From Erwinia endophytica (GTDB taxonomy: Bacteria; Pseudomonadota; Gammaproteobacteria; Enterobacterales; Enterobacteriaceae), in the NCBI RefSeq assembly GCF_009295515.1, contig NZ_RQVV01000007.1, positions 1-64,000 of the forward strand: a stretch of 64,000 nt of DNA, written 5' to 3'. Of this stretch, positions 47,272 to 62,126 are shown in pieces. The notes beneath the pieces are model-generated. The model had not been told where the DNA came from. It made no database searches and saw only the letters and a list, made by a program, of their open reading frames with translations. Both the position numbers and the translations under genes were made by a program. The number at the start of each line of letters is the position of its first letter. Position 1 is the stretch's first letter.

Positions 47272-47646
47272 AAATATCAGCATCCGTATGGGGACGGAAT
47301 GTCCCTGGCAGAACCGATTAGAGTCATTTGATACATATAAAATGATATGATCGATTTGTTTTTATTTCGATTAATGGTTAATATCCCAACTCGCCTTGTC
47401 TAATTTTTTAGGTCCATTCTAATATTGGATGGGAATACCTTTTTTTGAAAAGGAGATTAATCAAATCAATCTGTTGTAAAGGTAATATGGTATATTCGTT
47501 AATTTTTTATGATTAGTTGCCAGATCAACACAGTCAATTACTACAATAAGGTGATAGTTATTCTTAGACCAATGTAGTCGCTTACCGCCATGAGAAACTA
47601 CCATCATGGTTGCCCAGGCTGGGATCATCAGGTAAAAGGAGATTTA
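47272..47646. other. AT-rich region upstream of the LuxR-type regulator
   Basis: No gene is supported. The region is AT-rich and should contain the promoter of the regulator gene. The start of that gene is set by AAAGGAG at 47636-47642. Confidence 0.45.
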
Positions 47647-48282
47647 ATGGTTATGTGTGACAGTAATAACATGAAATGTAATGGAGTTATGAAGGTATCA
47701 TTACAAAGTGATAATTTATATTATACTTTCGGTCTTAGCCTTCTCGTTAATGAAGTTAACAGCGTGTTGAGTAAGTCACCTTTGTATTTTTTGGTAGGAG
47801 AATCGTCGAGTGACAGTAATGAAAAAAACATTATCTTCCGGGATATGATGGTTAGCGTTCACCTGAAAAAAGAGAACCGACGATGGAAAAATGACAACAT
47901 CTCACCTTGTAAGGAGATATATCATATTCCTTTTGGATGTCGGCAGAATAGTTTATCAGAAATCATGGGTAAACTTGAAAAAATCCTGTTGATAGCCCAT
48001 ATGGATTACTCTTCTTTTATTCGTCCGGAAAACCACAAATCAATTGGGTTGAAAGATTTTAGACAGTTGTCATTAACAGAATGTAAAGTTTTGCTATTAA
48101 TTGGTAAAGGCTATAATATCGGCCATATCTCCAGGATGTTAAACCGCTCAGAGAAAACCATCAATACACATTATCGCAATACCATCAGAAAATTGGGTAT
48201 GCTTAATCGGGCTGAATTCTATAAATATGCCTCTTTCATTGCTCACGGCGCTAGCAAAGATTGTAATACGTTATGCCTTTAA
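47647..48282 (+). CDS. LuxR-type helix-turn-helix transcriptional regulator
   Basis: This is a 211-residue regulator whose C-terminal 60 residues form a LuxR/FixJ HTH: LSLTECKVLLLIGKGYNIGH, SRMLNRSEKTINTHYRNTIR, KLGMLNRAEF. The N-terminal domain (YYTFGLSLLVNEVNSVL) resembles the degenerate receiver of CsgD/RcsA-like regulators and lacks an obvious phosphoacceptor Asp cluster. The ATG at 47647 is preferred over one 19 codons upstream because AAAGGAG lies five bases before it. It is AT-rich. It sits at the island edge, convergent with the T6SS-fimbrial operon, and is a plausible local regulator of it. Confidence 0.82.
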   Translation: MVMCDSNNMKCNGVMKVSLQSDNLYYTFGLSLLVNEVNSVLSKSPLYFLVGESSSDSNEKNIIFRDMMVSVHLKKENRRWKNDNISPCKEIYHIPFGCRQNSLSEIMGKLEKILLIAHMDYSSFIRPENHKSIGLKDFRQLSLTECKVLLLIGKGYNIGHISRMLNRSEKTINTHYRNTIRKLGMLNRAEFYKYASFIAHGASKDCNTLCL

Positions 48283-48362: not shown

Positions 48363-48854
48363 TTATGATTTCAGCTTCATTGGTGAAGTTTCAGGATCAA
48401 AGCTATTAATCAATTGAACATAATGTTTTCGCTGATGCTCTGTAAACTTTTCTTCCGCATTTAGGGTGAAAATAATGATATTTCTTCGTTCACTATTTAT
48501 TACTGGGTGAAAAGGAAGAGCGACCATCGTCTGGACCTGCTTCATCTGTTTACCGTCAAGATGAAACCGGTTTGCGATTTGCACTACCGGGAGTTTAGCG
48601 GGACCAATTTCGCTTTTCAGCTGTATCCCTTCTACGGCAAATGCAGGCATAGTATTGGTCATAAATGCCATTTGCGCATCACAGAACTCTTCCAGCTTTT
48701 GATCTTCTGCCAAAAAAGCGCGGTTGATCAGAATGGTGTATTCATTCTCTTCAGGGTCACGAAACCGTAATACGTTGACCGATTGGTCAAACAACGGGGC
48801 AGAGGTTAATAGTGTTCCTTCATAAATGATATAGGTTGATTTATTTTTACTCAT
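48363..48854 (-). CDS. DcrB-related protein (DUF1795, EagR/EagT6-type T6SS chaperone candidate)
   Basis: This 163-residue cytoplasmic protein (no signal peptide) of the DUF1795/DcrB-like family has the fold start YIIYEGTLLTSAPLFDQSVNVLRF and the conserved EYTILINRAFLAEDQKL. EagR-type members bind transmembrane segments of T6SS effectors and load them on VgrG. No Rhs, PAAR or VgrG gene is visible beside it, so its client is unknown. It is the last gene of the minus-strand operon, 6 bases after the ompA-like stop, with AAAGGA before its ATG. Confidence 0.8.
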   Translation of the reverse strand: MSKNKSTYIIYEGTLLTSAPLFDQSVNVLRFRDPEENEYTILINRAFLAEDQKLEEFCDAQMAFMTNTMPAFAVEGIQLKSEIGPAKLPVVQIANRFHLDGKQMKQVQTMVALPFHPVINSERRNIIIFTLNAEEKFTEHQRKHYVQLINSFDPETSPMKLKS

Positions 48855-48860
48855 AGTCCT

Positions 48861-50339
48861 TTACTCATTATTGTCGTGTTGATGTGCAGGTACAGGGATA
48901 AGATCCACTCGCCTGTTTTGTTGTCGACCTTCTTCAGTCTCATTACTGGCAACAGGATCGCTGGCACCAACGCCCTTAACCAAAAAGTTTGTTAGCGGGA
49001 CGTCTCCATGCTCTACCAGCCAGTCGCGCACAACTTTTGCTCTTTGCTCTGATAGCTGCATATTTAGCTGAGGCGTACCAGTATTATCCGAGTGACCAAC
49101 AATCAGAAAGGTAGTCTGGCGGTTATGGGTCACGGCAGGCAGCAACGCCTGTAATATTTTATCACTGCCCTCATTGAGCTCAGCACGGCCCTGAGCAAAT
49201 AAAGCCACAGGACCTGAAGAGAACAATATGGGTGAAGCCTTATAACGGCTGATAGCGTTATTGATATCAGCCAACATCTTACTGCACCTTGAAAGCCCCA
49301 AAATTTGTAGAAACGGGTTGGCCATACAGCCAGATAAGTTATCGCTGAATTTAGTTAATGAACTGAAAGTATTGCGTTTTTTCTGTAGATAAATATCATC
49401 GATCTGATTGAAGGTTTCGAGCGCTTTTTTCGCTTTAATCAGACGCTGCCCTTCCATCCAGGTTGTTCCTGCCAGGGTAAGCGCCAGCAATACCGCAATT
49501 GCAGCCGGTAACCAGAGACGTCCCCGTTGGGGCTTTTCTGTTACCCGGATAACCGTCTTCACTGCCGGTCGGTAAAGAAGGTCAGGTAGCTGAGGTAAGG
49601 CCAGCGATGAAGCAAGACCGGGATATATTGCAAATCTACTGCCCATCCAGTTTGCCCAGGCTCCATGCCGTACAAATCCCTCACCGTAGTCAGAAATAAG
49701 CATCCCGGTCAGCTTCAGGGATGTCTGGCTAAACAGTGTCTGTAATGACTTCATTACCCCGGTGTCATACAGCCATAATTGCAAGGCATCGATCATGGCA
49801 AAGCGCTGAATAGCGTGATGACCGCCAGACTGGCTGTGCCGTTCCAGCATTGCGCTCAATCTGGTAAATTCACTGTTGAGCGTGGTCTCTTTACGGGTGG
49901 TTATGTCAAATTCTCCGAGCCATATTGCACGGTCGGGATCTTCAACAGAACGCTCCCGGCTCAGTTGCGTATATAGACCCAAGATGCAGGGGAGGGATTC
50001 AGACAGCGGAAGTGCGCTAAACGATGCCTGGCAGTCGGCGATTTGCGCCAGAGTCAGCTCGCGACTTTCCTGCCCATCGGGAAGAAAAGGGAAGAACGCC
50101 ATGATTTTTGTATGCTGGTTAGTTGCATGGACCCGTGGCAAATATTTGTGCAGATCCTCAACATTCGGAGCCAGAATCCAGCGAATGTTCCCATTCTCAG
50201 CCTGATCGTCGAGAGGCTGACGATGAGAAAACCACTTTCTGGCGTATGGACCAATAATGAAAATGGCGACGATTCTTTCCTCTTCCTGATGCATTAAAAG
50301 AGAATGTGGCGTCTTATTTGAGTCGATTGAAGCAGACAT
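48861..50339 (-). CDS. T6SS-associated OmpA-domain protein (TagL-like)
   Basis: This is a 492-residue protein with a long N-terminal cytoplasmic region and one membrane segment at about residues 280-298 (LPAAIAVLLALTLAGTTW). A periplasmic OmpA-like peptidoglycan-binding domain follows at about 375-485 (FLIVGHSDNTGTPQLNMQLS, EQRAKVVRDWLVEHG, EGRQQNRRVDLIPV). Such proteins anchor the T6SS membrane complex to the cell wall as a separate partner of TssL. It starts directly after the tssL stop codon. Confidence 0.85.
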   Translation of the reverse strand: MSASIDSNKTPHSLLMHQEEERIVAIFIIGPYARKWFSHRQPLDDQAENGNIRWILAPNVEDLHKYLPRVHATNQHTKIMAFFPFLPDGQESRELTLAQIADCQASFSALPLSESLPCILGLYTQLSRERSVEDPDRAIWLGEFDITTRKETTLNSEFTRLSAMLERHSQSGGHHAIQRFAMIDALQLWLYDTGVMKSLQTLFSQTSLKLTGMLISDYGEGFVRHGAWANWMGSRFAIYPGLASSLALPQLPDLLYRPAVKTVIRVTEKPQRGRLWLPAAIAVLLALTLAGTTWMEGQRLIKAKKALETFNQIDDIYLQKKRNTFSSLTKFSDNLSGCMANPFLQILGLSRCSKMLADINNAISRYKASPILFSSGPVALFAQGRAELNEGSDKILQALLPAVTHNRQTTFLIVGHSDNTGTPQLNMQLSEQRAKVVRDWLVEHGDVPLTNFLVKGVGASDPVASNETEEGRQQNRRVDLIPVPAHQHDNNE

Positions 50340-50930
50340 TTAATACAAACCATCCAGGTATTTTCTGCAATAAATCCAGAGAGCCAGTAACAGGAAGAGC
50401 ATGGTTCCGGCCTGCCAATAGAATGGGTTTCTCCAGCGGTTACGTGATTTTTCTGGAACAAAAAGAGTGAGTTCTTCTCTTTTTTCCTCTGCAACGCCAA
50501 TGTCCTGAGTTATTTCTGTAACAGGCTCCGGTGCGTAGTGTGATATCAGGGCAATGATTTTCTCGTCGTGCCCAAGAGATTGGAGGATCAATGGAAGTAA
50601 TTGATAAGCATAATGAAAAATATTCTCCTCACTTTTTTTCAAAAAAATATCAAGTCTGTCAGTTAATGAGCCAAACTCCTTGTCATAGCCATAGAAATGA
50701 CGAGTCAGCAAATTTCTTTCCCATGAAATGTTACTGGCATTCAAGTGTAGTGAAATATGCTTATCGAGATAGCTACAGATGATATGGCATAAATCATCAC
50801 TTAGTTGCTCACATTCCCCCTCTGAAATAAGTGCTTTGCTGAATTGTTCAATCAGATTGACCACTTTTAGCTGGAACTCGGCCAGCGAAGGAATTACACC
50901 ATTAAATGACAACAGCGTATCAATACACAT
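50340..50930 (-). CDS. tssL: T6SS membrane-complex protein TssL (DotU/IcmH family)
   Basis: TssL is a C-tail-anchored inner-membrane protein of the T6SS trans-envelope complex. From the ATG at 50930 it is 196 residues: a helical cytoplasmic hook domain (SFNGVIPSLAEFQLKVVNLIEQF, WERNLLTRHFYGYDKEFGSL) and one C-terminal membrane segment (FYWQAGTMLFLLLALWIYC). An ATG 19 codons upstream overlaps the transferase gene and cannot be excluded. It has no fused OmpA domain; that function is in the next gene. Confidence 0.85.
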   Translation of the reverse strand: MCIDTLLSFNGVIPSLAEFQLKVVNLIEQFSKALISEGECEQLSDDLCHIICSYLDKHISLHLNASNISWERNLLTRHFYGYDKEFGSLTDRLDIFLKKSEENIFHYAYQLLPLILQSLGHDEKIIALISHYAPEPVTEITQDIGVAEEKREELTLFVPEKSRNRWRNPFYWQAGTMLFLLLALWIYCRKYLDGLY

Positions 50931-50956
50931 TATTTTGTTATAGTATTTTTCGCTTC

Positions 50957-52291
50957 TCACCAGTCCTGCTCCAAAATTTTTCCCCATCCTTCATTATGAA
51001 TATAAGGACTCACCCTGATAACGCTGGGTTTCAACAACGATGAGGTAATGAAATCCAGTTCGACATCCAGCCCAGATTGATCTTCATCTTCCAGGATGTC
51101 TTTTATCTCATCTGTGCACAGCACTTTCTTTTCAAGAAGCTCATTATTTTTGCTGTAAACACCAATATGCAGCCAGGAAATGTTTTGCATGGGATAGTCG
51201 AGTTCAGATTTGGCAATGGTCAGCGTTTTCTTATTGGCGCTGATCAACCTTTTCCGCCAGTCCTCGCCATTGTGATGAGGGAAATAAGAGCAACGCTGTT
51301 TATTAACCACTTCAGGAAGTACACAACAACGTTTAAAGTCGATGCCAATCATACTTTCGAATTCTTCCAGAGACCGCTTGTCACCCAGAGCATACCGTGG
51401 GTCAATATCACGGCTATCTTCCTCATAACCGAGTAATCTTCTGACTTGTTGCTTGGAGTTTCTATCCCTCTCCCACCATGCTTTATCAATCGAACCGGAT
51501 TTTTTGGCTTCACTATTATGATCTGACCAGACCTTAGTATGGTTTTTTCTGCCGTAAAAATGCCATAGTAAAACTTTATGTGGGTACCAGATGTCATAAC
51601 CGTGGGTAAATGAACGCACAGCCATGGCTATCTCTTCACCTTCGAAGAATATCTGTGGATCGTTTGGGACGTCGGTGACAAATGACCCCTCGGCAAAAAT
51701 AAACCCTCCGGCCAGATAACTTCCTCTTAATGGGGCACTATCTTTGAAATAAATCGAGGTCAGTTGCAATATGTTATCTCTGGAAAAACGACGAAATACC
51801 AGGCGGTTGACGACGTTCTTTTTCGTGCTGTCATCACCCGGTTCGTATCCTGGCGGGTAAGAGGAGAGGACGGGTTTACTGCTTTGCTTTTTTAATTGAG
51901 TTAGCATCGAGACCATCTCTTTATCCCAGTTTTTAATAAACCGACAATGAGAGTCAATCTGCAGGAAATAGTCTTCTTCGTTATAGAGTTTTTCGCAAAG
52001 ACTCCTTGCCCAGCAAACCCCCTGGCTGAGGAAGTAATGTACATTCAGGATCTGAATGTGGGCACCATGATAGTTGAAAATATATAAATCATGATCACCC
52101 TGCTGCTGCTGCTCATTCAATAGCATCCCTTCCTTCAGAAAAAGCGCTATATCCCCATCATCCTGCCAGCATACGGCAATGTTGAGTGAGTACAAACCCG
52201 AAGAGTGTTTGATAATATCATTCAACGTCGGAATGAGTTCAGCGTCCCGATAGCTGGCAATACTCACAAATATTCCAGGTTTTATGTCCAT
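50957..52291 (-). CDS. GlcNAc-transferase-like glycosyltransferase (PF11397/GT60-like)
   Basis: This 444-residue cytoplasmic protein has an N-terminal GT-A domain. It begins IFVSIASYRDAELIPTLNDI, the hallmark of the family related to Dictyostelium Skp1 polypeptide GlcNAc-transferase. The metal-binding DxH/DxD position is Asp113-Ser-His115 (FLQIDSHCRF). GSYLAGGFIFAEGSF and IFFEGEEIAMAVRSFTHGYD complete the nucleotide-sugar and acceptor pocket. About 130 C-terminal residues are not recognised. In this operon it follows the adhesin gene by 43 bases and precedes tssL. Its acceptor is unknown; a cytoplasmic protein of the cluster is plausible. Confidence 0.78.
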   Translation of the reverse strand: MDIKPGIFVSIASYRDAELIPTLNDIIKHSSGLYSLNIAVCWQDDGDIALFLKEGMLLNEQQQQGDHDLYIFNYHGAHIQILNVHYFLSQGVCWARSLCEKLYNEEDYFLQIDSHCRFIKNWDKEMVSMLTQLKKQSSKPVLSSYPPGYEPGDDSTKKNVVNRLVFRRFSRDNILQLTSIYFKDSAPLRGSYLAGGFIFAEGSFVTDVPNDPQIFFEGEEIAMAVRSFTHGYDIWYPHKVLLWHFYGRKNHTKVWSDHNSEAKKSGSIDKAWWERDRNSKQQVRRLLGYEEDSRDIDPRYALGDKRSLEEFESMIGIDFKRCCVLPEVVNKQRCSYFPHHNGEDWRKRLISANKKTLTIAKSELDYPMQNISWLHIGVYSKNNELLEKKVLCTDEIKDILEDEDQSGLDVELDFITSSLLKPSVIRVSPYIHNEGWGKILEQDW

Positions 52292-52334
52292 ATACTAACC
52301 CTTATATCTGAATTGACATAGCGTAATTGGCCTG

Positions 52335-53327
52335 TCAATTAATATCTAAAACAATTTCAGCCTTAGCAGTAAATGTCCCATTTTGTGGACGAGAAGAGCC
52401 AGTGCTGGTATTAATTAACTTCGCTCTCCAGTTGAATTTTGCGGCACTATTGGTGCTAGTTGACGCTATTTTTTCCAGAATAGAACCATCAACGTTAATG
52501 ACGCTGCCACTGTTGCTTAGTATCTGAATGCCAAGATTATCCGTATTACCATCTGCATCTGTTACTTTTATGTAGGTTGCATCTGAAGACGGCGTAGTGG
52601 TGGTAATGCTTGCGGTAGTAGAATAGGAGCCATAATCTGTTTTACAGGTCAGGCTGAAGTCCAGATTGCGTTCCACGCCTGCATCCACCATGGCGGGTGT
52701 CACGGTATTAAAATCGATGATTTTGGTATTTTCGACAGTACATGCTGGCGTGCTGATTATCTTTATCTGGTTAATAAAAAGTGACACTGGACGAACTGAG
52801 TCAGCCCCTAACCATTCATAACCCAGGGTGCCGGAATCAAGCACAATATCCCCTGTTGGATCGGAAAGCGTCAGGGTATCGTCCACTTTATAGAACCGTA
52901 TTCGATAATAACTTCCTGCTACCCAGTCCCATGTCCCTTTGTTTTCACCATTGGAAAATGTCAATGTGTAATTAATAGGGTAATAGCCGAAAGTGGCGCT
53001 ATCCGGAACATAAATATGTAATTTTACTCCGATACCAGGAATATTAGTTTTGTATAATCTTGTCGCTACTTCCTCTCCCAAGCCGATCAGTGCTCTGCCT
53101 GCGGCCAGACCACTAACACACTCATCATATCCGATGGCACTACCCAGTGATGAAGTAGTGAAGGTAGCAATAGGGTTTGATAAATCAGTAACGGCATCAG
53201 CACTAATAGTAATGGTCTGAGCAGGAAGGCTTAATATTGTTGGTGTTCCCCTTGCCAGGGTACAATCTGCCGCTGCATTGCTTGCGATTAATCCGCTCAG
53301 TGATAAGAATATAACCTTCCTTAGCAT
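52335..53327 (-). CDS. Fimbrial tip adhesin-like protein (two-domain, FimH-type)
   Basis: This 330-residue exported protein has a signal peptide (MLRKVIFLSLSGLIASNAAA, then DCTLARG). An N-terminal receptor-binding-like domain (to about residue 205) is followed by a C-terminal pilin domain beginning PACTVENTKIIDFNTVTPAM. The second cysteine is in FSLTCKTDYG, and the closing strand is GTFTAKAEIVLDIN. This is the layout of chaperone-usher tip adhesins. It is rich in Thr/Ser (TTASITTTTPSSDATY). It lies 5 bases after tssA on the minus strand, about 7 kb from and opposite to the fimbrial operon. Confidence 0.85.
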   Translation of the reverse strand: MLRKVIFLSLSGLIASNAAADCTLARGTPTILSLPAQTITISADAVTDLSNPIATFTTSSLGSAIGYDECVSGLAAGRALIGLGEEVATRLYKTNIPGIGVKLHIYVPDSATFGYYPINYTLTFSNGENKGTWDWVAGSYYRIRFYKVDDTLTLSDPTGDIVLDSGTLGYEWLGADSVRPVSLFINQIKIISTPACTVENTKIIDFNTVTPAMVDAGVERNLDFSLTCKTDYGSYSTTASITTTTPSSDATYIKVTDADGNTDNLGIQILSNSGSVINVDGSILEKIASTSTNSAAKFNWRAKLINTSTGSSRPQNGTFTAKAEIVLDIN

Positions 53328-53332
53328 GTATA

Positions 53333-54400
53333 TTATTCCTTGTCTGGATCTATTTTTTCTATCATATCGGGTGGTAATATTTTCAATAATTCTGAAAAAC
53401 GCTTACCTACAGTTGATTCCGCAAACGCTAATAGAGGGATTACCGGGCTACTGGGTTCCATTTTTGTGAACCATGTACGAATCTCTCTGAGCTTTGATAA
53501 TGCATCAGAGCGATTCTCTATTGTTTTTTGTACCTCAATTCGCTGAGGAGAAGTGACCGGAGCGTCATGGCTCACAATAGCGTTAACAGGTGAGGTTTCT
53601 GCTGGTTCTGTTTCTGTTTCTGGTTCCGATCCACTTTCCACTGGCACAATATCCTGTGGTGCAGAGGACTGATATGATGTGGTGACAAATAAGTTCAGCA
53701 GAGACGTCAGCCGTGAGAAGTCAGGCGTATCATGGCCTAATGAGTCTCTGAGATGATCCTTTATCTCCGCAAGACAGGCCCAGGCTTCCCGCAGAGAATG
53801 AATAGTTTTGTCTTCGCGCTCATCCCATTCATATAATAGTGCGGTGACGGTGGCTTCGGGTAGTGCACCTTCTTCACGCGGGGAAGCATTGGCTTTTTCA
53901 AATTCTTTAATGGTGATTTGTAAGCCTGCCGCCTTTGGCAGTGTCTGATTTCTGATATCGGTGAGCAGACCGCTAACATCTTCCATCTCCGATAGCGCAT
54001 TGGCTCGCATTAACGGGTCAAATTCACCATCCTCCAGTAACTGAGGATGTATATCAACCGGGAAAGCGATAAGCAAATGGTGCAGGGCCTGCAGGCCTTC
54101 ATTGATCGCCATCAGGCCTATTTGCCTGGTGCGACAGCGTATCAGAGCGATGACCAGACGGATATCCTTGCTTTTTTGCAGCAGTGCCAGACATTCCCGT
54201 TCTATCTCGGCCCAGTTCACAGGTTCAGCTGCCTCAACAAAGTTGCCATATTCCACATCCAGTCTGGGCTGTAACTTTGATTGCAGCATAATAAACCCGG
54301 CGTCGTATTCCAGGTTCTCCCCGCAAGGCCACTCTCCTGGAATAGGATCGAGCAGGTGTTGATAATAACTACTGAGTTTCGTGGTATGTATTTCAGCCAC
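53333..54400 (-). CDS. tssA: T6SS protein TssA (ImpA N-terminal domain, short form)
   Basis: TssA caps and primes T6SS sheath assembly. A GTG at 54400, preceded by AGGAAAAGGG, is the best start and gives 355 residues; the ATG 35 codons upstream overlaps tssG and lacks homology. The ImpA_N signature is present near the start (LLDPIPGEWPCGENLEYD), as is ALIRCRTRQIGLMAINEGL. A Glu/Pro/Thr-rich linker leads to a short C-terminal domain (SDALSKLREIRTWF, SPVIPLLAFAES). It is a short TssA form compared with the roughly 500-residue EAEC protein. Confidence 0.85.
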   Translation of the reverse strand: MAEIHTTKLSSYYQHLLDPIPGEWPCGENLEYDAGFIMLQSKLQPRLDVEYGNFVEAAEPVNWAEIERECLALLQKSKDIRLVIALIRCRTRQIGLMAINEGLQALHHLLIAFPVDIHPQLLEDGEFDPLMRANALSEMEDVSGLLTDIRNQTLPKAAGLQITIKEFEKANASPREEGALPEATVTALLYEWDEREDKTIHSLREAWACLAEIKDHLRDSLGHDTPDFSRLTSLLNLFVTTSYQSSAPQDIVPVESGSEPETETEPAETSPVNAIVSHDAPVTSPQRIEVQKTIENRSDALSKLREIRTWFTKMEPSSPVIPLLAFAESTVGKRFSELLKILPPDMIEKIDPDKE

Positions 54401-54470
54401 GGTAATATCCCTTTTCCTGAAAATTTGGCTGTTAACGGCCTTTCCCTGCTCACTCAACGCGTGAACGTAT

Positions 54471-55508
54471 TTACTGCAGTGCTCCCTGGTACAATTCAGG
54501 CTCAAAGCTCATCCCGTAGATGGGAATATCGGTTTCAGCTCTTTCCAGCCAGGTGGCATATCCTAGTTGATGCTCGCCACTTAACGTGGCATGTGGCACC
54601 TCACTGGCCGCCAGCACCAACTGAGTATCCCAGGCATATTCAAAGCCAATAAAGTTTCGCACCCATTCCCGTAATACCGGTAGATCCTGCCCCCACGGGC
54701 TGAAACGGATATATTGCTGCAGCGTCAGAGGGCCAAGAATAAGTTTAAATTTATGCTGCCGGTCTTTAACCGTATCACCCAGTATTGCGCCATCGCCCAG
54801 TAACATGGCACAGTCAGCCGCGCCAAGGATGGATTGATCTTTAGGAGAGAGAAAAATCCACTGGCTGGCGAATTCCTCCATTCGTGCCGGAACTTCAAAG
54901 TAGTATTGCAATGCACCGAGTAGGCCTTCCGGATTACGTGCTTCACGAATCAAATGGGCGGAAGAAGCGAGGCGGGCATGTGTTGGCAAAATCTTACTAT
55001 CCAGCTCCTGCGGATCCATGCCGACCAGGCTGGCGATGTAAAAAGAGAATCGCTCATCATCTGCGCGATCCAGTGATGCAGTATCCTGTGCGACAAACCA
55101 TGCCCGATAAAATAAAGAGAGGGCTCGATGATGAAAAATATCCAGAAAATCAACCATTGTATGGTCATTCAGTTCTGAACGTGAGTAGATCAGCTCCGAC
55201 AGATTCAGTGGCATCGCGCCCTGAGGTCCCCAGACACCAAGACCAAAAAGTTGCAGCCTGGCTCTGCCATCCTCAATGCCAATACGCGCAATCTCGCGGG
55301 GTGAAAACGCCATTGTGGCAGCCTGGCCGATACGATATTTTTCCTGAGAAGGCAACGCTGCCATACCGGGGTGGGGCGTCGACTGATGTTTGGCAGCAAT
55401 AGCCCGCATGACGCTGATAAAACCCGCATCCCAGGGGCGATCTTCATTAAACCAGGCATCCAATGTTGATAATGAATGCGCCATATCCACCGATTTTTCA
55501 GACATCAC
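54471..55508 (-). CDS. tssG: T6SS baseplate protein TssG
   Basis: TssG is a wedge component of the T6SS baseplate, bound to TssF. The 345 residues carry the family pattern: the opening WDAGFISVMRAIAA, the core LQLFGLGVWGPQGAMPLNLSE, HHRALSLFYRAWF and the C-terminal YIRFSPWGQDLPVLREWVRN. It overlaps the end of tssF by 4 bases (ATGA), the usual tssF-tssG coupling. Confidence 0.92.
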   Translation of the reverse strand: MMSEKSVDMAHSLSTLDAWFNEDRPWDAGFISVMRAIAAKHQSTPHPGMAALPSQEKYRIGQAATMAFSPREIARIGIEDGRARLQLFGLGVWGPQGAMPLNLSELIYSRSELNDHTMVDFLDIFHHRALSLFYRAWFVAQDTASLDRADDERFSFYIASLVGMDPQELDSKILPTHARLASSAHLIREARNPEGLLGALQYYFEVPARMEEFASQWIFLSPKDQSILGAADCAMLLGDGAILGDTVKDRQHKFKLILGPLTLQQYIRFSPWGQDLPVLREWVRNFIGFEYAWDTQLVLAASEVPHATLSGEHQLGYATWLERAETDIPIYGMSFEPELYQGALQ

Positions 55509-57382
55509 AGCGCCCCTCTTTTACCTGGACGTCCCTGCCAGCTTGCTATTGGCCCTCTTTGCATTGAGTGCAGTTCGGTTTCAGTAAAGATATTGATGGC
55601 TGCGTGACGAGATAAATAGTTTTCCATGATCAATCCGAACAAATAGGGACTGATACCTGAAAAACCGTCTTCGTCTACGGTCAACGTACAGCGGACTCCC
55701 CGGCCATAGACCAGCAGTCCATCGCCAGGCAGGCGGCGGGTGATTGGTTCGCTTTTGCAACCAATAAGACTGTTAACCTGGGCGTTTGACTCATGGTCCG
55801 AACTGTTCAAAAACAGACGAAGCATGTTGCGCAGGGATTCTCCGCCTAATCCGTGTTCCATATCTGACAGCGGCAAATAGTTAAAACTTAGCTGACGGAT
55901 CAGACGCCAGGCGGATTCACCAAGAGCGAATGGCGCTCGTGGCGCACTGGGCTGGCAAATAAAGGCGGCCCCCAGAATTGGAACCGCGTCGGCCATGGAG
56001 AGATCAAAGCTGCCGCTTCTTGTGATCAGACGAGGAAGGTCCCTGTTTGTGACCATGGCTTCGACAGAAAGATATCTGATGTGATCGGCATACGGCGCTT
56101 CCTGTTGGTCAACCAATGAGATGAATACTTCAGTACCCAGATAGGGCGTCCTGGTATCGTACTTTCTTTTGGTTTCTTCTTTGATCCTTGCCTCACGCTG
56201 GATGGAGAAGTAGCGGCCAAAATTGCTGTAGTCGCAGTATCGTGTCTGATAAAGCGGATTAAAGGTAACTTCTTCGCTTTTTTCTGCCTGCTGACCCAGG
56301 ACTTTATTAACCGAGAATATTTCAAAATCCATAGGCTTGCTGCGCTCAGGAACAACATGGAAAGCATTAAGCGCTCTGTTAACTTCTATCCTGTCAACCA
56401 CCTTAGGAAAGAGATTAATTACCGGGGTGCAAAACAATAGAAATTTCGATGAATCGACATGGCCAATCAGCTCTTGTGGCAGGCGTTCTAACAGAACAAT
56501 GAGCTCGGCTTCATTAGTGTGATTGTGCCGCAGTCCTTGTGCCAATTGGGTTAGCGTAAAGAAATAAAAACGTTGGCGGCAGGCAAAATATTCATGGATT
56601 AAATTGTGTCCATGGAACATGTTCCATGCCAGGGGAAGCAGTGTCTGGTCGGGTTTCAGCCCCTCAAAGGCCAGAGGTTGCTGACTGATGACCACATCCT
56701 GTGCTTCCGACCCACCCGCGCGTACGATCATTGCTACGTTGCTGGTATGCATTAACTCGAAAATATGGGAGACAACACTTTCATCGCCATCAATATAAAG
56801 CGGTAAGTCATCAAGGCCATTTAGTTGAGAAAATATTTTGTCACCCTGCAACTTCAGTTTTATACGCAGTGCGCCTTTAAGTTTTGCTGACGGAATACGA
56901 TACTTTTCCAGGTTCGGCAGATCGGGAGGAATCGAAGTCAAACGGGCTTCGGTTATTTCTATCGGCCAAAGTGTGACGTCCTGACCATTACGAAATTCGC
57001 AGCGAGAGTTTTCACCGGGTAAAATTTGGGTGTGAAACGCACTGCCTTTGGGAACCCGATAGCCTTGAGTCAGATCGCCTTCTTTCAGGTTGGGTGTTAG
57101 CTGAACCACACCCATTGATGGCGTCGGTGAATTATAATTTGGATAGACGATATCTAGCAGTCGCTGGGTGAATTTAGGGAATTCAGCATCCAGTTTTATC
57201 TGCGTCCTGGCGGATAAAAAGCAAAATGCCTCAATCAGACGCTCGACATAGGGATCGGCAACTTCGATTCCATGCATACCCAAACGGGCGGCAATTTTAG
57301 GATGTTTATCAGCGAACTCACGTGACATTTCTTTCATAAAGGTGAGTTCATGATTATAATAATCAAGAAATTTATGATCCAC
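55505..57382 (-). CDS. tssF: T6SS baseplate protein TssF
   Basis: TssF is the major T6SS baseplate wedge protein. The 625 residues start with the diagnostic FLDYYNHELTFMKEMSREF and continue with EVADPYVERLIEAFCFL. Later blocks such as FHVVPERSKPMDFEI, SQQPLAFEGL and GDGLLVYGRGVRCTLTVDE are conserved. It is the first gene of the minus-strand operon, although tssE normally precedes it. The 540-base divergent gap to clpV contains its promoter. Confidence 0.94.
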   Translation of the reverse strand: MDHKFLDYYNHELTFMKEMSREFADKHPKIAARLGMHGIEVADPYVERLIEAFCFLSARTQIKLDAEFPKFTQRLLDIVYPNYNSPTPSMGVVQLTPNLKEGDLTQGYRVPKGSAFHTQILPGENSRCEFRNGQDVTLWPIEITEARLTSIPPDLPNLEKYRIPSAKLKGALRIKLKLQGDKIFSQLNGLDDLPLYIDGDESVVSHIFELMHTSNVAMIVRAGGSEAQDVVISQQPLAFEGLKPDQTLLPLAWNMFHGHNLIHEYFACRQRFYFFTLTQLAQGLRHNHTNEAELIVLLERLPQELIGHVDSSKFLLFCTPVINLFPKVVDRIEVNRALNAFHVVPERSKPMDFEIFSVNKVLGQQAEKSEEVTFNPLYQTRYCDYSNFGRYFSIQREARIKEETKRKYDTRTPYLGTEVFISLVDQQEAPYADHIRYLSVEAMVTNRDLPRLITRSGSFDLSMADAVPILGAAFICQPSAPRAPFALGESAWRLIRQLSFNYLPLSDMEHGLGGESLRNMLRLFLNSSDHESNAQVNSLIGCKSEPITRRLPGDGLLVYGRGVRCTLTVDEDGFSGISPYLFGLIMENYLSRHAAINIFTETELHSMQRGPIASWQGRPGKRGAL

Positions 57383-57922
57383 CTGTATACCCCATTAATT
57401 CCATTTTTATCACTCTTAAATTTTTTTGGGATTTTCAGTTCAGAATAAAACGATTCCTTCGATAGCCAGAACAGTAGGACAAATCATCCAATGGCCGTAA
57501 AATGTCCTTCCCTGAAAGTATCCTGGTGGGTAAGCCATCGGTGCTTATTTCATCATGGAAAGTGTCTGATGGGAATAAAACAGTGATGTACATTGCATCC
57601 GACATTTCCACTGAATCATGTTCATCCCTCCCTTAATTTGTATTTTATCCTTATATCATGATGATTCTGATGACTCAAATCTGAAGGTTTATATATTTAT
57701 GTTTTTTTTGGCATCTTATCTCTATACTCTATTAAAAAATCTTTGATAATAACGATTTAAGTATGGCGCGATGATGAAATTAGGAATTTGTCCCGGTCTG
57801 TAATCCTAAAATTAGGTCTGAATGTGTTCTGTGCTTTGTGTTTCTATATCACCAAATCTAGAATAGCGCCAAAGGACGGATATGTCTGTAAATAAAAAGC
57901 CCAAAGGGATTGAACTATAATT
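57383..57922. promoter_or_regulatory. Divergent promoter region between tssF and clpV
   Basis: These 540 bases are AT-rich with no supported gene. They must serve both divergent T6SS transcripts. I looked for a sigma-54 -24/-12 site (TGGC-N-TTGC) and found none convincing. Stretches such as TATATATTTATG near 57690 could supply -10 elements, but no promoter can be fixed by eye. Confidence 0.45.
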
Positions 57923-60586
57923 ATGGCGATTACCAGGAAAAATTTATTTGGAAAACTAGATGCAACGCTATTCAGAAGTATCGAAAGTGCGACGACGATT
58001 TGTAAGTTGCGTGGTAATCCATACGTCGAACTGGTCCACTGGCTCAATCAACTCTGGCAACAGGATGAGAGTGATTTTCGTCTGATTGCCCGTCACTTCG
58101 AAGTGGATGTGGATGCAATGGAGCGAGGTTTTGCTCAGGCATTGACTCGTTTGCCTTCCGGTGCGAGTAGTATTTCTGATTTTTCCTATCATATTGAACT
58201 GGCTATTGAACGCGCCTGGATTTATGCCAGTCTGGAATGTTCCGATAACCGGATCCGTAGTGGCCATTTGCTGATTGCAATGCTGACAACTATGGAGCTA
58301 CGCCGTGCTTTATTTGATATATCTCCTGCACTTGAACATGTTTCTCTTGAGCATTTAACCAATGATTTTGGTTATATCACTCAGTCTTCTGTTGAAGCGA
58401 GCGAAGCCGCAAATGACGGCAGCGTATTGAATGAAGGGGCAATGCCTGGCGAGGCCAGTAATGCGCTGATGAGCCATAAAAACAGCGGTGGTCTGGCGCA
58501 ATACACCACCGATTTCACCGCGTTGGCGCGCGAAGGAAAAATCGATCCTGTGCTGGGGCGTGACCATGAAATTAATACCATGGTGGATATCCTGCTACGT
58601 CGTCGTCAAAACAATCCGTTGTTGACGGGGGAGGCTGGCGTTGGAAAAACCGCCGTGGTTGAAGGGTTGGCTCTGGCTATTGTCGCGGGCAATGTCCCCC
58701 CCGTGCTTTCTCAGGTACGTCTGCTGACCCTGGATGTTGTGGCGCTTTCTGCTGGCGCCAGTATGAAGGGCGAATTTGAGGCGCGGCTGAAATCGGTGTT
58801 GGAGGAGGCGATAGCTTCTCCACAACCTGTGATTTTGTTTATTGATGAAGTTCACACGTTGGTTGGTGCTGGCGGTACGGCGGGAACGGGAGATGCAGCT
58901 AACCTTCTTAAGCCCGCGTTGGCGAGGGGGCAGCTTCGCACCATCGGTGCGACCACCTGGCGTGAATTTAAGCGTCATATCGAAAAAGATCCGGCACTTA
59001 CCCGTCGCTTTCAGGTACTGCAGATTGGCGAACCGGATGAAGAGACGGCAACCTCAATGCTTCGCGGCCTGCTCCCCATGTTGGAAAAACACCACGGTGT
59101 CTGGATCATGGATGAAGCTTTGCAGGCTGCTGTTCGCTTATCTCACCGTTATATTCCCGCCCGTCAGTTGCCTGATAAGGCGATCAGTCTGCTGGATACC
59201 GCCTGTGCTCGAGTGGCTGTTGCTCAACATGTGCCACCGACAGAACTACAGATCCTTAAATTCCAGACTGAAACGGCTGAGACTGAATTATCGCTGGTTG
59301 AAAAAGCGTTGCACTTTGGTAAAGGCGATAGCAGCCGTGCGGCATCTTTGCGCGAACATATTGCCGGGCAGGTTGAAGAATCCCAACGGCTTGAGCAGCG
59401 GTGGCTGCAGGAGAAAGAGCTGGTGTCCTCCATGATCGCTGTCCGACAGGAGCTTCAGGTGCTGGTTGCACAAGACTCACCGGATAACGATCAGATTCGC
59501 CAGCAGCAAAACCAGCTTTCTGTGCTGGAAGTCAGTCTGGAAAGCATGCGTCAGGAGCAGCCGATGGTGCAGGCAGAAGTCAATGCGAGTGTCATCGCCA
59601 GTATTGTTGCCGACTGGACGGGTATTCCTGTGGGGCAAATGATGAAAGACGACATTCGTGCTGTGCTGGCGTTGCCACAGCGGCTGGCAGAACGTGTGAT
59701 TGGTCAGGAATTTGCCCTGAATCAGGTGAGCGAAAGTATTCAGACGGCACGTGCCGGTCTGGCCGATCCGAAAAAACCGATCGGCGTCTTCATGCTGGTA
59801 GGTCCCTCTGGGGTTGGTAAAACTGAAACAGCATTAGCCATTGCTGAGCAGCTTTATGGTGGTGAGCAGAATCTTATTACTATCAATATGAGTGAGTATC
59901 AGGAAGCTCATACAGTCTCATCATTGAAGGGGTCGCCACCAGGCTATGTCGGCTATGGAGAAGGCGGTGTTTTGACCGAAGCGGTTCGTCGTAAGCCTTA
60001 CAGCGTGGTCCTGTTGGACGAAATCGAGAAAGCGCACCCGGACGTGCATGAACTGTTCTTTCAGGTCTTCGATAAAGGCAGCATGGAAGATGGAGAAGGT
60101 CGTCAGATCGACTTCAAAAATACCATTATATTGCTGACCAGTAATGTCGGTAGTGAAATGATCAGCAGCCTGTTTACCGACCCGGACACAGCACCTGATG
60201 CTGAAAGCCTGAAAAAGCTGTTGCATCCAGCATTGTTGAAAACCTTCCCGGCCGCGTTTTTGGGGCGACTGGGCGTTGTCCCCTATTTACCGTTACTGCC
60301 CGAATCTCTGCAGAAAATTGTTCGACTGCATCTTGACCGACTGGGAGCGCGGCTGTTGGAACAGCACGGTGCTAATCTCCATTACCACGATGACCTGGTG
60401 CAATTTATTGTTGAACAGTGTCCGGTGTCTGAGACTGGCGCGAGGATGTTGATCCGTTTCATTGAGCAAAATATCGTGCCGGAAATGGGGCGTCGCATAT
60501 TGAGCAGTGAAGTGGTTATTACAGGGCAGACTATCCGTCTTGAAATGAATAAAGAAAATGGAATTGAGATCATTTTTCAACAATAG
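57923..60586 (+). CDS. clpV: T6SS sheath-recycling ATPase ClpV (TssH)
   Basis: ClpV is a hexameric AAA+ ATPase that disassembles contracted T6SS sheaths. The 887 residues comprise an N-terminal Clp-N domain (about 1-160), D1 with Walker A GEAGVGKT and Walker B VILFIDEVHTL, a coiled middle domain (about 410-530), and D2 with Walker A GPSGVGKT and VVLLDEIEKAHPDVHE. The family sequences QYTTDFTALAREGKIDPVLGR and VADWTGIPVGQMMKDD are present. It is monocistronic or leads into the fimbrial operon, whose first gene starts 112 bases downstream on the same strand. Confidence 0.96.
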   Translation: MAITRKNLFGKLDATLFRSIESATTICKLRGNPYVELVHWLNQLWQQDESDFRLIARHFEVDVDAMERGFAQALTRLPSGASSISDFSYHIELAIERAWIYASLECSDNRIRSGHLLIAMLTTMELRRALFDISPALEHVSLEHLTNDFGYITQSSVEASEAANDGSVLNEGAMPGEASNALMSHKNSGGLAQYTTDFTALAREGKIDPVLGRDHEINTMVDILLRRRQNNPLLTGEAGVGKTAVVEGLALAIVAGNVPPVLSQVRLLTLDVVALSAGASMKGEFEARLKSVLEEAIASPQPVILFIDEVHTLVGAGGTAGTGDAANLLKPALARGQLRTIGATTWREFKRHIEKDPALTRRFQVLQIGEPDEETATSMLRGLLPMLEKHHGVWIMDEALQAAVRLSHRYIPARQLPDKAISLLDTACARVAVAQHVPPTELQILKFQTETAETELSLVEKALHFGKGDSSRAASLREHIAGQVEESQRLEQRWLQEKELVSSMIAVRQELQVLVAQDSPDNDQIRQQQNQLSVLEVSLESMRQEQPMVQAEVNASVIASIVADWTGIPVGQMMKDDIRAVLALPQRLAERVIGQEFALNQVSESIQTARAGLADPKKPIGVFMLVGPSGVGKTETALAIAEQLYGGEQNLITINMSEYQEAHTVSSLKGSPPGYVGYGEGGVLTEAVRRKPYSVVLLDEIEKAHPDVHELFFQVFDKGSMEDGEGRQIDFKNTIILLTSNVGSEMISSLFTDPDTAPDAESLKKLLHPALLKTFPAAFLGRLGVVPYLPLLPESLQKIVRLHLDRLGARLLEQHGANLHYHDDLVQFIVEQCPVSETGARMLIRFIEQNIVPEMGRRILSSEVVITGQTIRLEMNKENGIEIIFQQ

Positions 60587-60697
60587 AATATGGGGGAGGA
60601 AAGCAAATAAAAATCAGATGATCAGCAATGGAAAGGGCAAACACAGGGTGTGTGCGCCGAATGTAATCAATTTGTATTTGTAAATAGGAAAATTTTT

Positions 60698-61234
60698 ATG
60701 CGTAACTTTAAAATGACGGTATGTGCACTGGCTCTGGGTATGGTTTCAGCTTCTTTCGTACAGGCTGCAACTCAGGGGACTGTAGAGTTCAATGGTAAGT
60801 TAATCAACGATACGTGTGTGATTGATCCAGAAAGCGAGAACATCGTTGTGACTCTGCCAACTCTTTCTGTCCAGACCCTGGCTGAAGCAGGCGCTACTGG
60901 TGGTTCAACATCATTTGATATCAAGGTGACTGATTGTCCTGCGGCAATCACCCAGGTTGCAGCCCATTTTGAAGCAATTGGCGGTACTGGCACCGATGCA
61001 GCTACCGGCAATCTGATTAATGATGAGACGACTGACCCAGCCACAAACGTCCAGGTCCGTCTGTATGATACTGATGAGGCGCCACTGGCCTTGGGTAATA
61101 CCGGTACAGCATCTGAGGTCGATACCACTAGCCAAACCGCCACAATGCGTTACTACGGTGGGTACTATGCTACAGGCACCACTACTGCCGGTAATGTACA
61201 TGCTAAAGCTCAGTACACACTGGCCTACCCATAA
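60698..61234 (+). CDS. Fimbrial major subunit (type 1 pilin family)
   Basis: This 178-residue pilin has a signal peptide (NFKMTVCALALGMVSASFVQA) and mature start ATQGTVEFNGKLINDTCVI. The two family cysteines are in NDTCVID and VTDCPAA, and the C-terminal strand AKAQYTLAYP is the donor-groove closing motif with penultimate Tyr. The ATG at 60698 has AGGAA upstream; the frame extends 16 codons earlier without a signal. It is Thr-rich near the C terminus. It is the first gene of the pilin-chaperone-usher operon. Confidence 0.93.
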   Translation: MRNFKMTVCALALGMVSASFVQAATQGTVEFNGKLINDTCVIDPESENIVVTLPTLSVQTLAEAGATGGSTSFDIKVTDCPAAITQVAAHFEAIGGTGTDAATGNLINDETTDPATNVQVRLYDTDEAPLALGNTGTASEVDTTSQTATMRYYGGYYATGTTTAGNVHAKAQYTLAYP

Positions 61235-61282: not shown

Positions 61283-61376
61283 GTTGAATAATATAATGAC
61301 TTGGTGTTATGGGGAAATAAATCCAGGCTATTCGTGTTGTATTTAATTAAGAGTCAATATTTTATTGGGTAATTAT

Positions 61377-62126
61377 ATGTTTTTTAAAATGGCTTCTTCA
61401 GCTCTTTTGACTTTCTGTCTGGTGGCCAGTAGCCAGGCGGCGATGACAATTAGCGGAACGCGTATCATTTTTCCGGGTAATGAAAAAGAAGTGAATGTCC
61501 GGACAAACAATAAAGGCGCTAATCCGTCATTAGTCCAGGTCTGGGTGGATGATGGCAATGCTAATGCTGATGTTAACTCAATAAAAACACCGTTTATGGT
61601 TACGCCGCCTGTGTATCGGGTTGAACCCGGGAAAGGCCAGAGTGTCAGGGTAATCTATAACGGCATGGCGCTTCCTCAGGACCGGGAATCTGTATTCTGG
61701 TTCAATATGCTGGAAGTACCACCAGTTATGCAAAATGCGGAAAAAGTTGATCGCCTTGAATTGGCGTTCAGAACCAGAATTAAAATATTTTATCGGCCAA
61801 AATCGCTCTCCAGTTCCGGAGTGGGTGAAGTGGATAAAATTAAGTGGGAAATGCTGGGAGATAATACAGGAATTCGGGTAACTAATCCGACGCCTTATTA
61901 TTTGTCTTTCGATAGTGCTGATGTACAACTTGGTGGTAAGGCGGTTGCACTGAATACGGAGATGGTGGCACCTTTTTCCAGCAAAGATTTCCTGTTAAAA
62001 AATAAAGGCAGTGTTGCAGGCCTGACGGGAGTGACCTTCCGGTTATTGAATGACTTTGGCTCTGCCTATAAAGGTCAACTGAATTTCAGCAATGGAAAAG
62101 AATTGGTTTTACAGCATAAAAAGTAA
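61377..62126 (+). CDS. Periplasmic fimbrial chaperone (PapD-like)
   Basis: This 249-residue chaperone for pilin subunits has a signal peptide (SSALLTFCLVASSQA) and mature start AMTISGTRIIFPGNEKEV. The first Ig domain carries TPPVYRVEPGKGQSVRV and the usher/subunit-binding FWFNMLEVPP. The second domain includes KIFYRP and RVTNPTPYYLSFDSADV. The basic residues expected to anchor subunit C termini are present. The ATG at 61377 is used; a TTG four codons earlier is less likely. Confidence 0.93.
   Translation: MFFKMASSALLTFCLVASSQAAMTISGTRIIFPGNEKEVNVRTNNKGANPSLVQVWVDDGNANADVNSIKTPFMVTPPVYRVEPGKGQSVRVIYNGMALPQDRESVFWFNMLEVPPVMQNAEKVDRLELAFRTRIKIFYRPKSLSSSGVGEVDKIKWEMLGDNTGIRVTNPTPYYLSFDSADVQLGGKAVALNTEMVAPFSSKDFLLKNKGSVAGLTGVTFRLLNDFGSAYKGQLNFSNGKELVLQHKK

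Follow-up and report, generated by a model that had tools for sequence, protein, structure and literature searches.

INTRODUCTION

Type VI secretion systems (T6SSs) are commonly held to depend on crowding, or on separate adhesins, for contact with the target cell, and how T6SS attackers secure that contact is a standing question. The closest described systems are those in which fimbrial genes belong to the T6SS cluster itself: the available excerpts of the papers concerned place chaperone–usher proteins in T6SS-C of E. cancerogenus and, citing Petty et al., in C. rodentium (PMC10797944), and chaperone–usher genes in the C. rodentium T6SS, citing Gueguen and Cascales 2013 (PMC5813230). The main text of the 2011 study of Pantoea and Erwinia T6SSs by De Maayer contains none of the terms fimbria, adhesin, usher, pilus, glycosyl or GlcNAc (PMC3235180). 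Here, we describe a T6SS cluster of Erwinia endophytica (genome size 4.23 Mb), found in a window comprising positions 1–64,000 of contig NZ_RQVV01000007.1, in which the genes for a fimbrial tip adhesin and a glycosyltransferase (GT) stand among structural genes on one arm, and a chaperone–usher set lies on the other. Fimbriae within a T6SS have already been published for C. rodentium and E. cancerogenus; for the adhesin–transferase pair, our literature search found no report among the matches listed.

The explanation that we consider probable is that the locus represents a conserved class of T6SS with a chaperone–usher pilus of its own, a minus-strand tip adhesin, a GT60-like O-glycosyltransferase acting mainly on a T6SS component or cargo, an Eag-type chaperone and a TssL2–OmpA anchor: judged by its gene set, this would be a weapon equipped with a grappling hook.

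RESULTS

Gene content of the cluster

The gene content and family assignments are established by the list of open reading frames (ORFs) together with profile searches. Eight ORFs form the minus-strand arm, in the order that a preliminary description, made from the sequence alone, had given:

55505–57382, minus strand: tssF (PF05947, TIGR03359)
54471–55508, minus strand: tssG (PF06996, TIGR03347)
53333–54505, minus strand: tssA (PF06812; TIGR03363 at 148.8 bits, against a cut-off of 160.85)
52335–53327, minus strand: two-domain fimbrial tip adhesin (PF00419, E 8.2e-15; MrkDrd, E 9.2e-5, below cut-off)
50957–52291, minus strand: PF11397 GlcNAc-transferase, GT60-like (E 1e-70)
50340–50987, minus strand: DotU/TssL-like protein, TssL2 (PF09850 at 24.3 bits, cut-off 27; NF038239, E 9.2e-5, below cut-off)
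48861–50339, minus strand: OmpA-domain protein (PF00691, E 1.3e-18)
48363–48854, minus strand: Eag-type effector chaperone with a DcrB domain (PF08786, E 1.3e-20)

The operon had been assigned the span 48363–60586; it extends only to 57382, and 57383–60586 lies outside it, 57923–60586 being the first gene of a divergent arm:

57923–60586, plus strand: clpV/tssH (TIGR03345 at 1245.5 bits, cut-off 884.95)
60650–61234, plus strand: fimA-type pilin (PF16970/PF00419)
61365–62126, plus strand: PapD-type fimbrial chaperone (PF00345, E 1.4e-43)
62242–64872 of the contig, past the window end at 64000, plus strand: fimbrial usher
70297–71685 of the contig, plus-strand arm: complete TssL (DotU and OmpA)
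71697–75515 of the contig, plus-strand arm: tssM

In full, the plus-strand arm runs clpV, fimA, chaperone, usher, fimA2, tssB, tssC, hcp, tssJ, tssK, TssL, tssM, an unnamed gene and vgrG, the last being cut off by the contig end at 78168. One cluster holds, by profile, the core genes tssA, B, C, D, F, G, H, I, J, K, L and M (vgrG in part, at the contig end). As for tssE, the contig gave no gp25 match; several relatives have one ∼20–30 kb from the GT gene on the plus-arm side (e.g. G413:C1:202922 and G404:C30:45085; genomes are given by their handles). Usher, PapD-type chaperone and pilin are adjacent and on the same strand between clpV and tssB. The earlier inventory, which had the minus-strand genes in the right order, had overlooked fimA, chaperone and usher there, and the separation of fimbriae and T6SS that it described for loci such as SPI-6 of Salmonella does not hold here, where the fimbrial genes lie inside the cluster. 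The source genome has four further tssF matches (C28, C20, C55 and C40, one of them partial at a contig end), that is, several T6SSs.

Conservation of the gene set

A search of genome contigs for the GT yielded six loci in Pantoea, Erwinia and Rosenbergiella: tssF–tssG–tssA stand upstream of the GT gene in all six, with the adhesin gene between in five. The GT occurs in 33 of 392 same-family genomes (20 of 154 genera) and in 12 of 37 genomes of the genus. Joining the family and genus sets gives 44 clusters (two in G310); these were found via the GT, and its presence in 44/44 is by construction. Rosenbergiella epipactidis (L018) has the whole order but stands outside the 44. The gene order is kept in most of the clusters and clpV is present in 42; usher and chaperone are undercounted, as most of the fetched stretches do not reach these genes. 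The preliminary description had proposed looking for the same order across Enterobacterales, and it recurs in dozens of genomes; what was called ‘not a standard arrangement’ is indeed unusual beside textbook T6SS loci, but is usual for one T6SS class.

The limits of this class emerge from a search with TssF. The 31 best loci (at least 826 bits, 57–100% identity) all lie in GT-bearing genomes, whereas the next seven (at most 825 bits, 55–57%) belong to genomes without the GT and without an adhesin match. No GT, adhesin, fimbriae, TssL2–OmpA or Eag gene was found in the 20 kb fetched at these seven loci; in five, clpV and tssB fall within one stretch with no fimbrial gene between, the junction not being seen in L087 and L090. 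A further 13 loci examined, with TssF identities of at most 43% (L091–L103), gave no GT, adhesin or fimbrial match, and in several of them the vicinity of vgrG contains a weak match to Eag. Three clusters, G310:C89, G370 and G345, carry the GT with low or partial TssF matches (39–56%). At order level, PF11397 was present in 2 of 295 genomes, both with this T6SS, and the tssA–adhesin–GT DNA was unmatched in E. coli genomes.

As a separate observation, G310:C89 and G370 (L082, L083, L106 and L107) form a diverged subclass with adhesin, GT and fimbriae, which has neither clpV nor TssL2–OmpA in the fetched stretches and the tssM of which has no poly-A tract.

The adhesin and its putative pilus

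The minus-strand adhesin combines a C-terminal Fimbrial domain with an N-terminal domain that resembles, by profile, the receptor-binding domains of Abp1D and Abp2D (E 2e-5 to 9e-4). No such two-domain adhesin is included among the four fimbrial genes of the plus-strand arm, and the minus-strand protein, which has this layout, probably supplies the tip of the plus-arm pilus. Its receptor-binding domain has a mean identity of 36.7%, against 47.5% for the pilin domain (38 sequences); this faster divergence would fit varied targets.

Adhesin and GT co-occur: across the 392 same-family genomes, the adhesin profile matches exactly the 33 that carry the GT and none of the other 359, bearing in mind that this profile (A2) was built from adhesins encoded next to the GT gene, and so is biased, and that no more than five candidates in each genome were scored, with E values up to 1e-15. 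Within the 44 clusters, the adhesin is in place in 41, counting G050, where GT and adhesin lie at two contig ends (C216 and C91). The fimA gene is present in 42, and it is G392 and G413 alone that are without it; the same two lack the adhesin, and none was found elsewhere in these genomes at E up to 0.001. In both, clpV runs directly into tssB, and the best ushers have 35% and 34% identity, respectively, versus 61% and 53% for the T6SS-type ushers of G404 and G068. Moreover, G392 groups with the fimbriate G404 in trees of clpV+tssFGA (bootstrap 94) and of GT+eag+luxR (bootstrap 100), and a clade of G392 and G413 is rejected in the same two trees by the approximately unbiased (AU) test (0.027 and 0.0013, respectively); since the trees place the two apart in this way, two independent joint losses of adhesin and fimbriae are likely. 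The tssA–GT junction left behind measures about 96 bases in G392 and 3 in G413, as read by eye for insertion scars, with no similarity search of those bases.

The third exception, G068, is alone among the fimbriate clusters in having no adhesin in place; its adhesin gene (L168:9232-10224) lies on another contig (G068:C10) and adjoins a different usher, and none of the neighbours tested there is a Pfam-recognised chaperone. The preliminary description had treated absence of adhesin and transferase from this locus in close relatives as evidence against its reading. Such absence does exist, albeit in a restricted form: the adhesin is away in 3/44 clusters, two of them also without fimbriae, and the GT is missing not from any of the 44, which its own presence defined, but from the next seven TssF loci. 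Recurrence, together with the joint presence and absence of adhesin and fimbriae, favours the ‘composite contact-plus-delivery machine’ that had been suggested.

The transferase

The transferase passes PF11397 with 239.4 bits, against a cut-off of 21, and has no further Pfam domain; no signal peptide was seen by eye. We take PF11397 to correspond to CAZy family GT60. Excerpts of a published account assign the DxH motif to GT27 and GT60, which share polypeptide Ser/Thr O-glycosylation as their mode, and mention protist members of GT60 (PMC7185993). The motif is intact in the present protein, and its D113 and H115 are invariant in 42 sequences. Comparison with the PDB returned no match to the transferase either by sequence (E up to 0.01) or by profile (E up to 1). 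There is one copy per cluster, with a mean identity of 45%, compared with 44% for TssA.

TssL2–OmpA and the Eag-type protein

The DotU-like minus-strand gene, called tssL in the preliminary description, is TssL-like, but, judged by its sequence, it is a second and divergent copy (TssL2) that falls below the Pfam cut-off, the full TssL being encoded in the plus-strand arm. The adjoining OmpA-domain protein comprises a conserved N-terminal domain, one transmembrane segment (by eye) and the OmpA domain. In 16 of the 44 clusters, a single ORF of at least 585 aa gives the best match to both the TssL2 and the OmpA-domain profiles (below this length the label of a fused protein is loose); the pair is missing in five clusters, namely, G293, G345, G310b, G370 and G409.

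The last minus-strand gene, described earlier as dcrB-like, does match the DcrB domain (PF08786); against the PDB, the family profile finds SciW (E 2.4e-8) and EagT6 (E 0.0038), and by this similarity the product resembles Eag-type effector chaperones. The gene is present in all 44 clusters. A PAAR match was absent from nine proteins tested beyond vgrG in G414; the contig under study ends in vgrG. Phage genes (terminase, portal and major capsid) lie beyond vgrG in G414, Pantoea sp. BAV 3049.

Occurrence beyond the family

A tblastn search against plasmid records returned 8 records. The plasmids pBMC401 of Burkholderia ambifaria and pl1WSM5005 of Paraburkholderia sprentiae are annotated with fimbrial protein–chaperone–usher–fimbrial protein–DotU–OmpA–tssB and onward, and on both tssG, an ImpA-family protein (tssA), a fimbrial protein and a GlcNAc-transferase are adjacent. 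Profile searches gave tssF–tssG–tssA–adhesin–GT–clpV–fimA–chaperone–usher–fimA2–tssB in Cupriavidus campinensis. All three Betaproteobacteria have tssA–adhesin–GT plus fimA–chaperone–usher–fimA2 in one T6SS cluster, with DotU2–OmpA after the fimbrial genes in two. Because these bacteria share the adhesin–GT–fimbrial set in partly reordered clusters, it appears that gene order and extras vary around a retained core.

The T6SS-linked GTs, with one GT from a K. aerogenes plasmid, form a single clade (bootstrap 99; 37 sequences, drawing on 20 of the 44 gammaproteobacterial clusters). At phylum level, PF11397 was found in 28 of 398 genomes. Ten stretches were fetched from the far-phylum genomes with PF11397 and nine gave a match to the GT profile; none of the nine matched the T6SS or fimbrial profiles of this cluster. 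One of these distant GT genes stands between HlyD and ABC-transporter genes. On an Azospirillum thermophilum plasmid, the GT gene heads an eCIS-like contractile-injection operon (DUF4255, sheath, VgrG, PAAR and tape measure), in Phyllobacterium genes for type I secretion are close by, and in Granulicella it is not beside an export machine. In the few contexts seen, GT60 genes recur beside export machines.

The poly-A tract of tssM

According to the available excerpts of the original report, transcriptional slippage takes place in C. rodentium tssM at an A11 tract that precedes a stop at nt 2421, and TssM is required in both lengths; in tssM3 of Y. pseudotuberculosis, the frameshift occurs at A9 (nt 2394). 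The excerpts call such sites not common (PMC4256274); in the excerpts of the two papers, slippage in tssM has been shown in two species and proposed for a third (PMC10797944; PMC4256274). The tssM gene of the present cluster has A8 at nt 2386, plus A8 and A9 elsewhere. Among 43 gammaproteobacterial clusters (tssM of G050 is absent from the comparison), 40 have A8–A11 at the same codon (G017 aligns one codon upstream), and the tract is missing from G345, G310b and G370. It coincides with a break of the ORF in four (G280, G355, G017 and G209), to which homopolymer assembly errors could contribute, and the ORF is intact in 36. From the Lys codon use of the same genes, 18.7 of 40 would be predicted, and 0 of 6 other KKK sites starts AAAAAA (n = 41, without L106 and L107 and without the loci of the Betaproteobacteria and of the sister class; as the sequences are related, no probability is attached). 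The tract is absent from tssM of B. ambifaria and P. sprentiae. Four tssM genes of the sister class have no tract at this codon; two have A9 or A10 farther along, that of G234 at an ORF break. Class-wide transcriptional slippage in tssM is likely on this pattern.

Gene junctions and transcription signals

The genes of the minus-strand operon had been placed 0–70 bases apart, which they are, but overlaps of 4, 31 and possibly 35 bases also occur. tssF and tssG overlap by 4 bases. Between tssG and tssA, a 35-base overlap results from a mechanically chosen TTG start; with the GTG at 54400 as the start of tssA, which is probably the true one, the two genes are separated by 70 bases. Six relatives align from residue 21–47 onward. 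The gaps tssA–adhesin, adhesin–GT and OmpA–DcrB measure 5, 43 and 6 bases, respectively, the GT and DotU-like genes overlap by 31 bases, and the DotU-like and OmpA genes abut. A promoter and terminator scan gave no minus-strand terminator-like site inside the operon junctions. It gave two weak promoter-like matches (9/12), the ends of which lie 5 and 6 bases upstream of the starts of the adhesin and DotU-like genes; overall, such matches are fewer than in shuffled sequence (15 versus 22.1), and the scan is uninformative. Co-transcription of the eight genes is plausible.

Convergent with the operon end is a regulatory gene:

47590–48282, plus strand: LuxR-type (GerE) regulator (PF00196, E 9.7e-11; weak FimW similarity)

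It was matched in 20 of the 44 clusters. A LuxR-type gene also stands before fimA in B. ambifaria.

DISCUSSION

The conservation of this gene set, the co-occurrence of its parts and the joint absence of adhesin and fimbriae are established; the mechanism that we propose builds on them as follows. The plus-strand arm would make the rod and assembly platform of a pilus from FimA, chaperone, usher and FimA2, with the minus-strand adhesin as its tip; we infer that this pilus, if expressed together with the T6SS, holds the target cell close during sheath firing. The GT60-like enzyme would be a cytosolic protein O-glycosyltransferase acting mainly on a T6SS component or exported cargo, the Eag-type product would chaperone a membrane-domain effector, and TssL2–OmpA would add a second TssL-like anchor with an OmpA domain.

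To the bias of the adhesin profile, already mentioned, several points must be added that weigh against this explanation. The two clusters without fimbriae might instead go back to a single loss, followed by a regain in G404. G+C content is ∼43% over adhesin–GT–TssL2, versus 45–52% over tssG–tssF and clpV, which a later addition would fit too. Among the Betaproteobacteria, the adhesins match the profile weakly (72, 74 and 49 bits), an Eag-type gene was not found in any of the three stretches, and that of Cupriavidus has no TssL2–OmpA pair. A strict link of the GT clade to T6SS is challenged by the conjugative plasmid pYD-K10_1 of K. aerogenes (L169), where a shorter GT of the clade, with no T6SS in the 37 kb seen, stands amid IS elements about 7 kb from another fimbrial operon; more generally, GT60 genes that do not belong to this class have other systems as neighbours. 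Lastly, Ser/Thr/Pro-rich stretches pointed to no substrate: the TssA maximum of Ser/Thr/Pro richness is as high without the GT (0.46, n = 7) as with it (0.42, n = 44).

The alternative that survives best, although we think it unlikely, is that the GT glycosylates the adhesin or the pilins in the cytosol before export, such that pilus and GT constitute one module. It would account for the GT gene coming next after the adhesin gene wherever both are found in one stretch with the adhesin in place, and cytosolic glycosylation of adhesins before export is known for other families. However, G392 and G413, which have neither adhesin nor fimbriae, keep the GT, TssL2–OmpA and Eag genes. As the GT persists where the pilus has been lost, the transferase probably modifies a T6SS component or exported cargo rather than mainly the pilus.

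Only a little less well placed, and to our minds still unlikely, is the proposal that a T6SS locus carries the adhesin, the fimbriae and the GT as passengers, co-localized and perhaps co-regulated but with no mechanistic coupling. The two genomes that keep the T6SS cluster without fimbrial genes, the lower G+C over adhesin–GT–TssL2 and the distant adhesin of G068 are all compatible with this; yet the core has been retained across classes despite rearrangement, and absence is joint and rare (2/44). It is improbable that the GT60-like protein is itself a T6SS effector, delivered to act on a eukaryotic host protein: GT60 has protist members, as the excerpts seen of the account cited above mention (PMC7185993), and an Eag-type gene is found in every cluster, but the GT is present as one copy per cluster, is conserved about like TssA, occupies a fixed place among structural genes and has no further Pfam domain. 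A decaying relic of two fused loci, the other suggestion of the preliminary description, to which the degenerate DotU match and the in-frame stop or split genes of some relatives (G332 adhesin and G345 tssF) might have pointed, is scarcely credible and was rejected on the conservation across 44 clusters, since all ORFs of the cluster in the window are open (vgrG being cut by the contig end), the order is kept in most clusters and DxH is invariant in 42 sequences. The irregular genes in question, namely the adhesin of G332 (L054) with its in-frame stop and tssF of G345 (L077) in two ORFs, represent either decay or assembly error.

Within the preferred explanation of a T6SS class with its own pilus, a more far-reaching possibility is that pilus, T6SS and protein glycosylation act as one device. 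Slippage would yield full-length and truncated TssM, TssL2–OmpA would partner the short form, and the site of firing would be tied to pilus contact and tuned by GT60. We regard this as doubtful. The pairing of the TssM short form with TssL2, and its link to the pilus, are what we infer ourselves, and G293 and G409 have the tract without TssL2–OmpA, whereas two Betaproteobacteria have DotU2–OmpA without the tract. The wider interest of the locus lies in the fact that a dedicated pilus with a tip adhesin would make contact specificity testable by deletion of one gene, and in a possible protein O-glycosylation step in a T6SS, as well as likely class-wide tssM slippage.

Comparison with known systems places the cluster nearest to CTS1 of C. 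rodentium and T6SS-C of E. cancerogenus (subtype i3), with which, going by the available excerpts, it shares chaperone–usher genes inside the cluster and the poly-A tract in tssM/icmF (PMC10797944; PMC4256274; PMC5813230). The class features of a CTS1-like system are both found here: the fimbrial genes lie inside the cluster, and the tract is near nt 2400. The difference, by description only, is that the excerpts name a fimbrial protein, a chaperone and an usher, and mention no tip adhesin on the other arm, no GT60 and no second TssL–OmpA; they attribute the fimbrial genes to these two species alone. Among effector chaperones, the Eag-type protein is akin to SciW and EagT6 by its profile match, best to SciW, but its gene closes a structural operon, and its cognate effector was not seen, the contig ending in vgrG. 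The transferase shares with the GT60 polypeptide GlcNAc-transferases its strong PF11397 match and conserved DxH, and differs in being bacterial and T6SS-linked. The adhesin resembles Abp1D and Abp2D, tip adhesins of Acinetobacter chaperone–usher pili, in its receptor-binding domain; unlike those, it is encoded apart from the pilus operon, inside a T6SS operon. Finally, the T6SS of Salmonella SPI-6 also has a fimbrial operon nearby; there, however, the saf/tcf fimbriae form a neighbouring operon, whereas here the fimbrial genes lie between clpV and tssB, with the adhesin inside the tssA operon.

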